Virus record (IMG/VR): IMGVR_UViG_3300025767_000090
Coordinates: 1-29,809 of that record
Strand: one strand, 5' to 3'
Length of the DNA stretch: 29,809 nt
Source of the DNA: a virus
The stretch's first letter is position 1. Every line of letters starts with the position of its first letter. Shown here piece after piece: positions 5,018-25,861 of the stretch. The notes beneath the pieces are model-generated. The model did not search any database. It worked only from the letters and a program-made list of their open reading frames with translations, and was not told the origin of the DNA. Position numbers and translations under genes: made by a program.

Positions 5018-5040
5018 GCTATTGAAAAATTATTTTATTT

Positions 5041-5087
5041 TTTTACTAAATAGTTGCTTTTAGTTACTTTTAGGTTATAGTAGTTAG
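5041..5087 (+). promoter_or_regulatory. Promoter of the three-gene cassette (early-type repeat)
   Basis: TTGCTT (5054-5059), a 16-nt spacer and TATAGT (5076-5081) fit a sigma70-type promoter, with transcription expected near 5088. The surrounding sequence is AT-rich and shares blocks with the 25610 region: TTGAAAAA, ACTAAATAGTTG, TTTAGTTA, TTTTAGG, TTATAGT. A TAGTTAG element lies at 5081-5087. The likeness to two other early-region leaders suggests shared control. Confidence 0.75.
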
Positions 5088-5341
5088 TAAGGAAAGGATA
5101 AAAAATGAACAAGCCACTACCTCAAAACATAATCAACCAAAAGCAAACGCTCAACGAGGTTCTTTGGGTAGCCGAAGTTAGCAACGCTAGTAGCCAAAAC
5201 ACTGTTCGGGCTTATGCAAAGTCAATTTCAGAAGCGCTAAGCCTTGTTGATAACTTTGCTATACAGCAACTTTCAGGAAGCGTAGTTCTTTCAATTGAAT
5301 TAGACAAGAACTAATGAGAATAAGGAAAGGATAAAAAATGA
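5088..5341 (+). repeat. Duplicated 21-nt leader with ribosome site
   Basis: The same 21 bases, containing AAGGAAAGGA, a run of A and the ATG, occur at 5088-5108 and again at 5321-5341, before the first and second cassette genes. The exact copy suggests that the leader, or an ancestral gene with it, was duplicated, or that both genes need matched high translation. The repeats include the start codons at 5105 and 5338. Confidence 0.85.
5105..5314 (+). CDS. Unknown cassette protein 1 (69 aa)
   Basis: The start at ATG 5105 is set by a strong ribosome site (AAGGAAAGGA). The 69-residue product has a polar N-terminus rich in Asn and Gln (PLPQNIINQKQTLNE), then a segment EVLWVAEVSN...TVRAYAKSISEALSLVDNF that could form a small alpha/beta fold, ending VVLSIELDKN. 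No signal peptide or membrane segment is visible and no family is recognised. It is the first gene of a unit bounded by terminators and driven by an early-type promoter, so expression apart from the head genes is likely. Confidence 0.7.
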   Translation: MNKPLPQNIINQKQTLNEVLWVAEVSNASSQNTVRAYAKSISEALSLVDNFAIQQLSGSVVLSIELDKN

Positions 5342-5532
5342 CCACGATCCAGCAACTAGAGTCAGAGATAGCCGAGGCGGAGCAGCTAGTTCAGCTTTAC
5401 ACCAAGCTAGGCGAAACTTATATGGCAATCGGCAAGCGCGATCAGGCTTACGCCAAGCGTAACGAAGCGGTGGCTCAACAGAGCCGCCTGCTAACACTAA
5501 AGGCAATACTAAAAAGCAAAGGACAGAACTAA
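5338..5532 (+). CDS. Unknown cassette protein 2, short coiled coil (64 aa)
   Basis: The start at 5338 lies inside the second copy of the duplicated leader. The 64-residue product is almost wholly helical by composition, with heptad-like spacing of Leu, Ile and Ala (IQQLESEIAEAEQLVQLYTKLGETY and a second stretch to LKAILKSKG), so a coiled-coil hairpin or oligomer is likely. There is no Cys or membrane segment. The stop overlaps the next ATG (TAATG), which suggests translational coupling. Function is unknown. Confidence 0.7.
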   Translation: MTTIQQLESEIAEAEQLVQLYTKLGETYMAIGKRDQAYAKRNEAVAQQSRLLTLKAILKSKGQN

Positions 5533-22899: not shown

Positions 22900-22919
22900 A
22901 TGAGCGAAGAAAGGATAAG

Positions 22920-23123
22920 TTGAAAGACGAACTAATAGCAAGAGATGCAAGAGGCAGGGCACTAGAGAACTCAAAGTTTCGAGTGCTTACAAACAAAGAC
23001 CGCGTAGACATTACGCAAGAAATCAAACAGCTTTACTTTCACGCAGGTCGAGCGAGCGCCGGTGCGAGGGATTACCTAGCAGTCGAGGCGTATAAGCGTT
23101 ATCAAAGGCTAGAGAGATGTTAG
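22920..23123 (+). CDS. Unknown small early protein (67 aa)
   Basis: The TTG at 22920 has a good AAAGGA upstream (GAAAGGATAAG). The 67-residue product is polar and helical, with KDRVDITQEIKQLYFHAGRASAGARDYLAVEAYKRYQRLERC. It overlaps the methyltransferase start by 7 bases. No family is recognised. An adaptor or DNA-related role is possible. Confidence 0.65.
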   Translation: MKDELIARDARGRALENSKFRVLTNKDRVDITQEIKQLYFHAGRASAGARDYLAVEAYKRYQRLERC

Positions 23124-23770
23124 TTTTTGATTTCTTTAGTGGCACTGGCAGTTCAACACAAGCATTTAGAGAAGCCGGAGATACAGTCATTGGCTTTGAG
23201 ATTGATGCCAGCTTCAATCCGGAGGTCATTGCCGACATCAACGACTTGAACGCCAGCGAGTTGTTGCGAACTTATGGCCGGCCAGACTTTATCTGGGCAT
23301 CGCCACCCTGCACAACATTTAGCGTTGCAAGTATTGGCCATCATTGGCTTAGAGGTGGCAGTAATCCTTTGCCAAAGACTAAGGAAGCTGCCGATGCTCT
23401 AGTCATGGTGCTGAATTTGCGAAGGCTTATTGAAGAGCTAAATCCTAAATACGGATTTCTTATTGAGAATCCACGAGGCATGATGAGAAAAATTGCACCT
23501 ATGCAAGACCTCGATCGAGTGACTATTACTTACTGCCAGTATGGAGACACAAGGCAAAAGCCAACTGACTTATGGGGATGGCTGCCTAATTGGAATCCCA
23601 GACCAACTTGCAAACCAAAGTCAGATTGTCACGAGTCAGCACCGAGAGGAAGCAGAACTGGAACTCAGGGATTAGGTAATGCCAAAGACAGAAGCCGGAT
23701 CGCACCAGAACTCGGCCACGAACTTCGTGCTGCGCTTGCGGTGGAATTAGCAGAGGACAGCCCGCGATGA
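23117..23770 (+). CDS. C5-cytosine DNA methyltransferase, compact
   Basis: This 217-residue enzyme should methylate cytosine C5 in a DNA target using S-adenosylmethionine. Family motifs are in order: FFSGTGSSTQAF (motif I, 6-17), the acidic EID near 28-30, the PPC catalytic loop at 63-65 (ASPPCTTFS), ENPRG at 117-121, and QYGDTRQKPTDLW at 141-153 (motif VIII-like). At 217 residues it is shorter than typical Dcm-type enzymes (330 or more) and lacks an obvious long target-recognition domain. No restriction endonuclease is next to it, so it may protect the phage from host restriction. Confidence 0.85.
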   Translation: MLVFDFFSGTGSSTQAFREAGDTVIGFEIDASFNPEVIADINDLNASELLRTYGRPDFIWASPPCTTFSVASIGHHWLRGGSNPLPKTKEAADALVMVLNLRRLIEELNPKYGFLIENPRGMMRKIAPMQDLDRVTITYCQYGDTRQKPTDLWGWLPNWNPRPTCKPKSDCHESAPRGSRTGTQGLGNAKDRSRIAPELGHELRAALAVELAEDSPR

Positions 23771-23802
23771 ACGAGCTGCCCTCGAAACCGATACATCGAC
23801 TA

Positions 23803-23841
23803 TCGGCAACCTCCAGTTTAGGCGATTGCCGAGATTGGAGG
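23803..23841 (+). promoter_or_regulatory. Overlapping inverted repeats over the initiator ribosome site
   Basis: TCGGCAA (23803-23809) pairs with TTGCCGA (23826-23832). CCTCCA (23810-23815) pairs with TGGAGG (23836-23841), and the latter contains the GGAGG ribosome site for GTG 23846. The pairs interleave, so they should form alternative structures, one of which hides the ribosome site. A translational switch is possible. Confidence 0.5.
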
Positions 23842-23845
23842 CATA

Positions 23846-24631
23846 GTGCCACTCATTAGAGGTCATCACTCATTCGATGACCATTTCACGCAGATACCCA
23901 ACGACTGGGTTCGCGATACTCGACTATCCCTCAAGGCCATCGGGCTGTTAGCGCAACTATTAAGTCACTCACCGGGCTGGTCAGTTTCTATCGCTCAACT
24001 AGCACGCGCTAACGACTGCGGCCTAGATCTAATACGCAACGCTGTAAGGGAGCTAGAAGCCTGCGGTTATTTAGAGCGATCGCAAAAGCGTATCAATAAC
24101 AAGTTCGGTGAGGCGGTCTACAAAACAACTGACCCATCGGGTTTCCCGTCATCGGGTTTTCCGTCATCGGGAAATCCTACCCCTAAGAATACAAATAGAA
24201 AGAATACTAATAATAAGAAGTATGACGATTGGTTTGATGAATTTTGGAAGGCGTATCCACGCAAGGTAGGCAAGCCGGCCGCCAAGAAAGCTTTTATGAA
24301 ACTAGATGATGCGGTATCAGCTTTACACGGCGCACAGAGACTAGCTAGCGATCCCAACCTGCCGCCTACCCAGTTCATACCTCACCCAGCTACTTGGCTA
24401 AATCGGGAGGGCTGGAATGATGAGCCTTATCCAGAGCGTGAAAAATCTAAGGAAGATCTAGCCTCTGAAGCTAAAGCTAAGGCAGAGCGTGAGCGTAAGT
24501 TGAGTGCGGATTATTTACGCGAGGAGCAGGAACGCAGCACTCAGGCCGCGCCACCGCCTAAATGTGAACACGGCCAGAACCTAGCGTTGTGTGCTAAGTG
24601 TGCGCGTAAGGTGGCTAATAGTGAAGATTAG
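23846..24631 (+). CDS. Replication initiator (DnaD-like winged helix protein)
   Basis: GTG 23846 has an excellent GGAGG site 4 bases upstream. The 261-residue protein opens with a winged-helix domain typical of phage replication initiators (LIRGHHSFDDHFTQIPNDWVRDTRLSLKAIGLLAQLLSH, SIAQLARANDCGLDLIRNAVRELEACGYLERSQKR). A linker rich in Pro, Ser, Asn and Lys is followed by a second domain, WFDEFWKAYPRKVGKPAAKKAFMKL...FIPHPATWLNREGWNDEPY, shared by many phage initiators. The C-terminus has KCEHGQNLALCAKCAR, a possible zinc site. It probably binds the origin inside its own gene and recruits the host helicase. Confidence 0.85.
   Translation: MPLIRGHHSFDDHFTQIPNDWVRDTRLSLKAIGLLAQLLSHSPGWSVSIAQLARANDCGLDLIRNAVRELEACGYLERSQKRINNKFGEAVYKTTDPSGFPSSGFPSSGNPTPKNTNRKNTNNKKYDDWFDEFWKAYPRKVGKPAAKKAFMKLDDAVSALHGAQRLASDPNLPPTQFIPHPATWLNREGWNDEPYPEREKSKEDLASEAKAKAERERKLSADYLREEQERSTQAAPPPKCEHGQNLALCAKCARKVANSED
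24135..24179 (+). repeat. 15-bp iterons inside the initiator gene (origin candidate)
   Basis: Three copies of a 15-bp unit CATCGGGTTTCCCGT lie head to tail at 24135, 24150 and 24165; the third is diverged (CATCGGGAAATCCTA). Each keeps the reading frame (SGFPS repeated). Each unit has an inner palindrome CGGG-TTT-CCCG. Repeated initiator sites inside the initiator gene are the layout of the lambda origin. Confidence 0.7.
24183..24226 (+). other. AT-rich tract next to the iterons (possible DNA unwinding element)
   Basis: A stretch of about 44 bases directly after the repeats is made mainly of A, with few C or G (about 7 of 40 by direct reading), in a genome near half GC. It codes for the Asn/Lys-rich linker (NTNRKNTNNKKY). 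AT-rich tracts next to iterons are where initiators open DNA. Confidence 0.6.
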
Positions 24632-24634
24632 TAA

Positions 24635-24646
24635 TAATGTTGAGTT
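24635..24646 (+). promoter_or_regulatory. Leaderless-type -10 before gene at 24647
   Basis: TAATGT (24635-24640) lies exactly 6 nt before GTG 24647. There is no ribosome site. This is the same TANNNT-N6-start layout as in the late region, but the hexamer is weaker. Confidence 0.35.
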
Positions 24647-24931
24647 GTGGATGAGCGAAGATGTGTGCGTTGCGGCATCAACCGCGATCTACCAACTAAG
24701 AGAAGTGGTCGGAAAGATCTTTGCAAGAGTTGCAGGGTCAAGGTTGAACACATTATTCGCTACGCCAAAGGCGAAGTGTGTTTGGCTTGGCGCGGTGACT
24801 TCGATGCAGAGGACAACCCGATACACAATGGCAAGTTATTTATGCCCGGTGTTCGCTCCTGCGGCCATCGTGACTGTATCAACCCAGAACACATAGAAGA
24901 AGAAGGACAAGATAATGGCTATACAAATTGA
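24647..24931 (+). CDS. Zinc ribbon / HNH-like protein (94 aa)
   Basis: The 94-residue product has a zinc ribbon CVRCGINRDLPTKRSGRKDLCKSC near the N-terminus and a second segment SCGHRDCINPEHIEEEGQDNG. The pattern H..C.NP.H ending in Q.DN is that of HNH_3-type nucleases, often linked to DNA-binding ribbons. Start GTG 24647 lies after the initiator gene stop. It overlaps the SSB gene start by 17 bases. It may be a homing-type or accessory nuclease. Confidence 0.7.
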   Translation: MDERRCVRCGINRDLPTKRSGRKDLCKSCRVKVEHIIRYAKGEVCLAWRGDFDAEDNPIHNGKLFMPGVRSCGHRDCINPEHIEEEGQDNGYTN

Positions 24932-25220
24932 GTTCACCGGTTACATCAACGAGGTGAAGAAGTTTGAGTGGGGAACTGTCTATGACATTTCTCACGCTCA
25001 GCGATTACAAAATGACAGCGGCGAGTGGGAAACCAGCGGCTACGATTACTTCTCGGTTATCGGAGATCCCGGCCTAGATGCCAACCAGCGCGTAACAGTC
25101 AAAGGCAGACTAAAGACTAAGCGCTACGAAAAGAAGGACGGCGGAACCGGCGTGAAGCTAGAAATTAGAGCCGAGTCCATTGAGCCTTATCAGAAGCAGG
25201 ACACAGACGCTCCGTTCTAA
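24915..25220 (+). CDS. ssb: Single-stranded DNA-binding protein
   Basis: The start has an AGAAGAAGGACAAGATA leader. The 101-residue product is a compact OB fold (IEFTGYINEVKKFEWGTVYDISHAQRL, YDYFSVIGDPGLDANQRVTVKGRLKTKRYEKKDGGTGVKLEIRAESIEPY) and ends in an acidic tip DTDAPF, which matches the SSB C-terminal peptide that binds partner proteins (DDDIPF in bacterial SSB). It protects ssDNA in replication and recombination and lies next to the RusA gene, whose start overlaps its stop. Confidence 0.85.
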   Translation: MAIQIEFTGYINEVKKFEWGTVYDISHAQRLQNDSGEWETSGYDYFSVIGDPGLDANQRVTVKGRLKTKRYEKKDGGTGVKLEIRAESIEPYQKQDTDAPF

Positions 25221-25597
25221 TGGATGAGTTCGTTGTGCCGGGACAGCCGATACCGCAAGGATCTATGCGGCACGTCGGAGGCGGCAGGATTGTTAGTAAG
25301 AATCCCAAGCTGAAGAAGTGGCGTGAGCGTGTAGCTAAGGTCGTAAATGATCAATGCGGCTCTCCCGGTTACATCGAACCCATAGCAGTCACCATTCTGT
25401 TTCAGTTGCAAAAGCCAGCTAGCGCTAAGCGCGATTACCCAACTGTTCCTCCAGATCTAGACAAACTCCAAAGGGCAATAGGTGATGCCTTGTCAATAGA
25501 TGCTGGATACATAAAGGACGATGCGCAGATCGTAGAGTGGCACGCCACTAAGCAATACGGCGAACCTAGCGTGATAATTCGTGTAAAAAAACTTTGA
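25220..25597 (+). CDS. rusA: RusA-family Holliday junction resolvase
   Basis: This 125-residue enzyme cuts four-way DNA junctions. The three catalytic acids of the RusA family are present: D79 and D81 in PPDLDKLQRAIGDAL and D100 (or D101) in GYIKDDAQI, and the beginning VPGQPIPQGSMRHVGGG is the usual RusA N-terminus. Length is normal for the family. It starts by one-base overlap with the SSB gene and ends the replication block. It may resolve junctions before packaging. Confidence 0.92.
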   Translation: MDEFVVPGQPIPQGSMRHVGGGRIVSKNPKLKKWRERVAKVVNDQCGSPGYIEPIAVTILFQLQKPASAKRDYPTVPPDLDKLQRAIGDALSIDAGYIKDDAQIVEWHATKQYGEPSVIIRVKKL

Positions 25598-25601
25598 AAA
25601 A

Positions 25602-25670
25602 CTTTCACTAAATAGTTGTGTTTAGTTAGTTTTAGGCGTTATAGTTATTACTAGTTAGAAACGCTAACTA
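25602..25670 (+). promoter_or_regulatory. Early-type promoter with operator-like inverted repeat
   Basis: TTGTGT (25616-25621), an 18-nt spacer and TATAGT (25640-25645) form a plausible promoter. It shares ACTAAATAGTTG, TTTAGTTA, TTTTAGG and TTATAGT with the promoter at 5050. Just downstream TAGTTAG (25652-25658) and CTAACTA (25664-25670) form a 7-bp inverted repeat with a 5-nt loop, near the expected start of transcription, so it is a good operator candidate. Confidence 0.75.
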
Positions 25671-25687
25671 AGTTGAAAGGAAACAAG

Positions 25688-25861
25688 ATGAACATTTACA
25701 GCAACGAACCAACTACCAAGCTACTTACTTTGCTCATCGAGATGGTCGCAGACAAGCAAATGCTTCTAGCTAATGGTTTTGACAAGATTGCAGAGCAGGA
25801 TGACTTTGTTATCGCCAACATTATGAGCGAACTAGATTCAAGAAAACTGCAGGTGGCATGA
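25688..25861 (+). CDS. Small unknown protein (57 aa) leading the small-gene operon
   Basis: ATG 25688 follows the ribosome site GAAAGGAAACAAG. A TTG at 25673 would extend the frame by five residues but lies in the leader. The 57-residue product (NIYSNEPTTKLLTLLIEMVADKQMLLANGFDKIAEQDDFVIANIMSELDSRKLQVA) is mostly helix, with no membrane segment or Cys. It overlaps a small membrane gene by 4 bases. No family is recognised. Confidence 0.65.
   Translation: MNIYSNEPTTKLLTLLIEMVADKQMLLANGFDKIAEQDDFVIANIMSELDSRKLQVA

Follow-up and report, generated by a model that had tools for sequence, protein, structure and literature searches.

In phage lambda, the O protein binds as dimers to iterons within its own gene, and the AT tract next to them becomes unwound (PMC7466680; PMC5043065). 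Plasmid initiators bind their iterons as monomers (PMC5043065). According to the same review, the exact sequence of the unwinding region matters, and it is not yet resolved by what route initiators get hold of single strands (PMC5043065). In extrachromosomal mycobacterial prophages the HTH initiator RepA is sufficient for replication; the authors suggested a lambda-like location of the origin, inside repA, as a possibility, and saw no repeated motifs in the regions that they had inspected (PMC7157519).

The IMG/VR virus record analysed here was used in its entirety (29,809 bp, hereafter the window). Iterons and an A-rich tract lie within the stretch of its initiator gene that codes for the linker, and very probably this is the replication origin of the phage, embedded in the gene of its own initiator. 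An earlier note had compared this arrangement with the origin in the lambda O gene. The layout and the probable mechanism bear out this comparison, but by sequence the initiator does not belong to the lambda O family. The locus is well supported as an embedded origin of the lambda type that uses an initiator of another family.

The initiator and its gene

An AlphaFold2 model of the initiator (mean pLDDT 75.9, pTM 0.37) shows a winged-helix-like domain at the N-terminus and a helical domain at the C-terminus, joined by a disordered linker. The linker residues 99 to 122 have pLDDT values under 50 and are predicted to be disordered. The winged-helix fold of the N domain is likewise a prediction; Foldseek gave weak matches to MarR-like folds (best E 0.017), and a PDB sequence search yielded no related protein with a solved structure (best E 0.43).

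The protein matches the HTH_36 profile (PF13730) with 28.3 bits compared to a curated cut-off of 25, as do 25 of 25 relatives examined, and residues 10-231 match the replication initiation protein profile phrog_270 (E 5.1e-37). The initiator was not among the matches of Phage_rep_O, the Pfam family of lambda O, at E up to 0.1, and none of the 25 relatives matched at E up to 1. The O-like profile phrog_345 gave a weak match (E 2e-4). A helicase loader similar to lambda P adjoining the initiator was not found among the ORFs scanned, which cover small ORFs only in part.

Near its C-terminus the initiator carries a KCEHGQNLALCAKC motif (C-x-H-x7-C-x2-C, window 24560-24601), possibly a small zinc-binding tail, which the relatives L001, L002, L005 and L006 also carry and other clades lack. 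The initiator gene is immediately preceded by a short gene resembling C5-cytosine methyltransferases (23117-23770).

Iterons and A-rich tract within the linker-coding region

The features of the locus are listed in Table 1. The three head-to-tail 15-bp iterons described in the earlier note were confirmed: the array (24135-24179) is the top-scoring three-copy tandem of the 29.8 kb window (z 6.74), the best z in 100 Markov-1 simulated windows being 5.77, and TRF ranks it first as well (score 67). A single iteron with up to 3 mismatches is not improbable (5 matches in the window vs 3.65 expected); the improbable feature is the tandem arrangement. The internal palindrome claimed for every iteron is perfect in copy 1 (CGGGTTTCCCG) and imperfect in the other copies, and its register is ambiguous. 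Alternating arms also yield the palindromes CCCGTCATCGGG (24145-24156) and CCGTCATCGG (24161-24170); this alternative register is the one with complete palindromes in some relatives, such as L026 and phiPsal1.

Table 1. Features of the initiator gene and the embedded candidate origin (window coordinates).
Feature	Position	Strand	Basis or remark
Initiator gene (GTG start), 261 aa	23846..24631	+	HTH_36, phrog_270, AlphaFold2 model
Iteron 1, CATCGGGTTTCCCGT	24135..24149	+	Tandem-repeat analysis, TRF
Inverted repeat CCCGTCATCGGG, spanning the iteron 1/2 boundary, alternative palindrome register	24145..24156	.	Direct sequence reading
Iteron 2, CATCGGGTTTTCCGT	24150..24164	+	93% to copy 1; tandem-repeat analysis, TRF
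Iteron 3, CATCGGGAAATCCTA, diverged copy	24165..24179	+	9/15 bases as in copy 1; same position in relatives
A-rich tract, probable DNA unwinding element	24183..24226	+	77% A+T, low duplex stability, synonymous constraint in relatives
Phased element 1, TAAGAA, 15 bp past iteron GGG at 24169	24184..24189	+	
Phased element 2, AAAGAA	24199..24204	+	
Phased element 3, TAAGAA	24214..24219	+	

The AT-rich stretch of about 44 bases noted behind the iterons was recovered, too. It exhibits the second-lowest duplex stability in the window, after the intergenic stretch 5020-5063, and is the least stable 44-mer inside any gene. Its A skew is +0.45, compared to +0.56 in lambda O. The earlier note had overlooked that the tract forms a 15-bp array of its own (TRF row 24184-24219): the GGG of the iterons (24139, 24154, 24169) and the three WAAGAA words occupy six positions on one exact 15-bp register. 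In most members of the close family, WAAGAA-type words are spaced 15/15 or 16/14. The Lys and Asn codons AAG and AAC are commoner in these tracts than elsewhere in the genes, so the tract does not merely maximise A+T.

The degenerate third iteron speaks against an origin at this site, as do intergenic AT-rich stretches at two other places. An origin in one of the latter (5020-5108 or 25584-25683) is nevertheless extremely unlikely. The first contains the least stable stretch of the window, and both have a 30-bp sequence in common that was found in 0 of 100 shuffles; but neither region has tandem repeats, and the common 30-mer, which is without an exact match in any other locus fetched, looks more like a promoter or operator pair. 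The sequence in question, ACTAAATAGTTGNNTTTAGTTASTTTTAGG, is located at 5045-5074 and 25607-25636, each time followed by TATAGT, and is likely such a pair. A 24-bp repeat, TAAGGAAAGGATAAAAAATGAMCA (96% identical, 5088-5111 and 5321-5344), covers the RBS region and the start of two small ORFs. GC skew showed no clear switch along the window, in which the large genes are all on one strand.

Selection on the DNA of the linker-coding region

Relatives were collected by a viral-contig search, which yielded 80 loci, about 40 of them with the N domain, and were supplemented by a pond MAG and phage records. The earlier note had named a lack of iterons in close relatives as the finding that would speak against an origin. 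A tandem array with units of 15 or 16 bp is, however, present at the same linker position in the closest relative, L001, and in nearly all other close relatives. The unit differs by lineage. This virus and L001 have CATCGGGTTTYCCGT; the largest clade has CCTACGCAGGAYAAT, two further clades have CGGAWAAYCCG and the 16-bp AAATCCCGTCACGGTG, respectively, and the Pontimonas phage phiPsal1 has TTCCACTGTGGA. Similar arrays were seen in Microbacterium, Curtobacterium and Lactobacillus phages. A few relatives speak against an origin at this site: L038, L040 and Tank have a weak array or none, the strongest tandem scoring low or being located elsewhere.

Some relatives are mosaic. L018 and L027 differ by 3% in the C domain, but by 40% in the N domain and 45% in the iterons, whereas L026 and L027 are closer in the N domain (18% different) and iterons (13%) than in the C domain (33%). 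In the initiator genes of L018 and L027 the N/C junction lies in or near the AT tract, and the pair suggests recombination at the origin. The mosaic relatives agree with the proposed binding of the iterons by the N domain. In a partial Mantel test of the iterons against the protein domains both partial correlations were significant; the test therefore does not separate the N from the C domain.

The comparison of synonymous conservation in relatives proposed in the earlier note gave a clear result. The mean excess synonymous codon identity was 0.82 in the linker and 0.40 in the rest of the gene for an 18-member clade, and 0.55 vs 0.18 for 13 more diverse relatives; in 20,000 column permutations the linker excess was never reached. 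Compared with contiguous blocks equal to it in length, the linker ranked 7th of 217 and 9th of 230, where, the rank alone being given, the higher-ranking blocks were taken as windows a few columns off, or ties at best. Divided by parts, the excess was 0.94-0.97 in the iterons (0.97 in the 18-member clade), 0.78-0.89 in the AT tract and about 0.4 in the C domain; the synonymous constraint is confined to iterons and AT tract. Furthermore, L006, L026, L027 and L083 each contain two copies of one iteron that are translated in different frames (as PVTVKS and RHGETA in L026), so that the DNA is the conserved entity. Selection acts on the DNA itself, as the earlier note had supposed in ascribing the linker to DNA function and not to protein fold.

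Codon usage of this gene alone shows a mild excess (identical codons at 6 of 9 repeated residues vs 2.8 expected, P 0.027), and the strong evidence for constraint at the DNA level comes from the comparison. This mild excess and the predicted disorder of the linker would fit a low-complexity protein spacer that has grown by replication slippage, with the DNA repeats as a by-product. Such an origin of the repeats has next to no probability and is already contradicted by the synonymous excess in the linker, by the iterons read in two frames and by the 16-bp periodicity of AT tracts (see below), which is no multiple of three. Judged from the aligned sequences, a purely protein-level cause fails to explain the linker pattern.

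Alternatively, the repeats might only be an autoregulatory operator by which the initiator limits its own transcription, with replication starting elsewhere. Many HTH proteins are known to bind inverted repeats near their own genes, and binding for control and origin function are not mutually exclusive. As the sole function this is very unlikely: the repeats are situated some 290 bp into the gene, a consensus scan detected no sigma-70-like promoter in 22900-25800, and the constraint covers the whole AT tract, which an operator does not need.

Phased AT tracts, proposed mechanism and comparison with known origins

The AT tracts of 28 phage lineages, including lambda, P22, phi80, Gifsy-2 and Lactobacillus, Staphylococcus and actinobacterial phages, were self-similar at lags 15 (z 5.1) and 16 (z 4.6) compared to codon-shuffled tracts, with tract boundaries set by rule, lineages that are partly related and a pattern that was spotted first and then tested partly on the same sequences. 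In 68 AT-rich control tracts from other ORFs the value was 0.0 at both lags. The first word lies 14-16 bp past the last GG in 13 of 29 lineages (1.17 expected, P 0.0005); several lineages are off this register. In the Lactobacillus phage phiEF-1.1, AAGAACT occurs three times and, because the copies are 16 bp apart, in three frames. Variants of the word are TAATAA in Staphylococcus phage BE20 and AAAAGA in lambda.

As an origin finder the bare motif (three AAGAACs at 15-16 bp) was rejected: the scan of the collection was swamped by acidic-repeat proteins, and since 2 of 120 loci match the N-domain profile of the initiator, the motif does not find origins. When the initiators of phiEF-1.1 and of Microbacterium phage Kozie were used to scan for related loci, each retrieved a single one, and the copies obtained with lambda O were at least 99% identical and hence unusable as a synonymous-site control.

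With more doubt than confidence, we propose that embedded phage origins share a phased unwinding element, in which WAAGA-type words recur along the A-rich strand at intervals of 15-16 bp, in many cases in register with the iterons, and that a single initiator assembly may extend from the double-stranded iterons to the region being opened and read the sequence there. This reading would cover phages as different as lambdoid, Gram-positive and actinobacterial ones, whose iterons are unrelated. If true, the shared element would be the phage counterpart of the oriC 13-mers. It would also make testable the question of how initiators hold single strands: if the 15-bp register matters, a change of phase or synonymous recoding should block opening with the iterons untouched. 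Embedded origins of this type are already known. For the phased unwinding element and the shared register we found no earlier description; the literature search was limited, and the lack of a report on a phased motif in phage AT tracts is weak evidence of absence.

By analogy with lambda O, the N domain should bind the iterons. In the mechanism we propose, the N-terminal winged-helix domain would occupy the three iterons, probably as dimers on inverted half-sites, and the bound array would distort the DNA and open the adjoining A-rich tract. This initiator assembly, or a factor recruited by it, may then make contact with the phased WAAGAA elements. Finally, the C-terminal domain would deliver the replicative helicase of the host, or the loader of that helicase, to the strand so exposed; recruitment from the host is probable because neither a helicase nor a loader nor a polymerase turned up in the early ORFs that were scanned. 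The origin is here placed in a widespread HTH initiator family, whose phages are mostly metagenomic, and is predictable from sequence.

Lambda-type origins (gene O, phi80 gene 15, P22 gene 18 and those of Stx phages were compared) likewise have inverted-repeat iterons inside the initiator gene, between the DNA-binding and the C-terminal halves, followed by an A-rich, strand-asymmetric tract (PMC5043065; PMC7466680). The origins annotated in lambda and phi80 are arranged like the locus described here, and the lambda AT tract repeats at 15 bp, too (ACAAAAGACACTATT, ACAAAAGAAAAAAGA). The differences concern the iterons, which are three abutting units of 15 bp here but four units of 18-19 bp with spacers in lambda, and the lack of both a Phage_rep_O match and, among the ORFs scanned, an adjoining P-like gene.

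The homologous initiator RepO of phiPsal1 (34% identity over 75%) and other actinobacterial phage HTH initiators have an iteron array and an A-rich tract at the same place. The phiPsal1 iteron and its spacing differ from those found here, and RepO is annotated by name only, with no origin annotated. In iteron plasmids and oriC, too, the iterons adjoin an AT-rich unwinding region with repeats of its own (PMC5043065); compared by layout, however, their origin is situated outside the initiator gene and contains 13-mers instead of WAAGAA words phased at 15 bp. The mycobacterial prophage RepA origins resemble this locus, by their description, in the HTH initiator and in the suggested position of the origin within its gene, and differ from it in that repeated motifs are present here.
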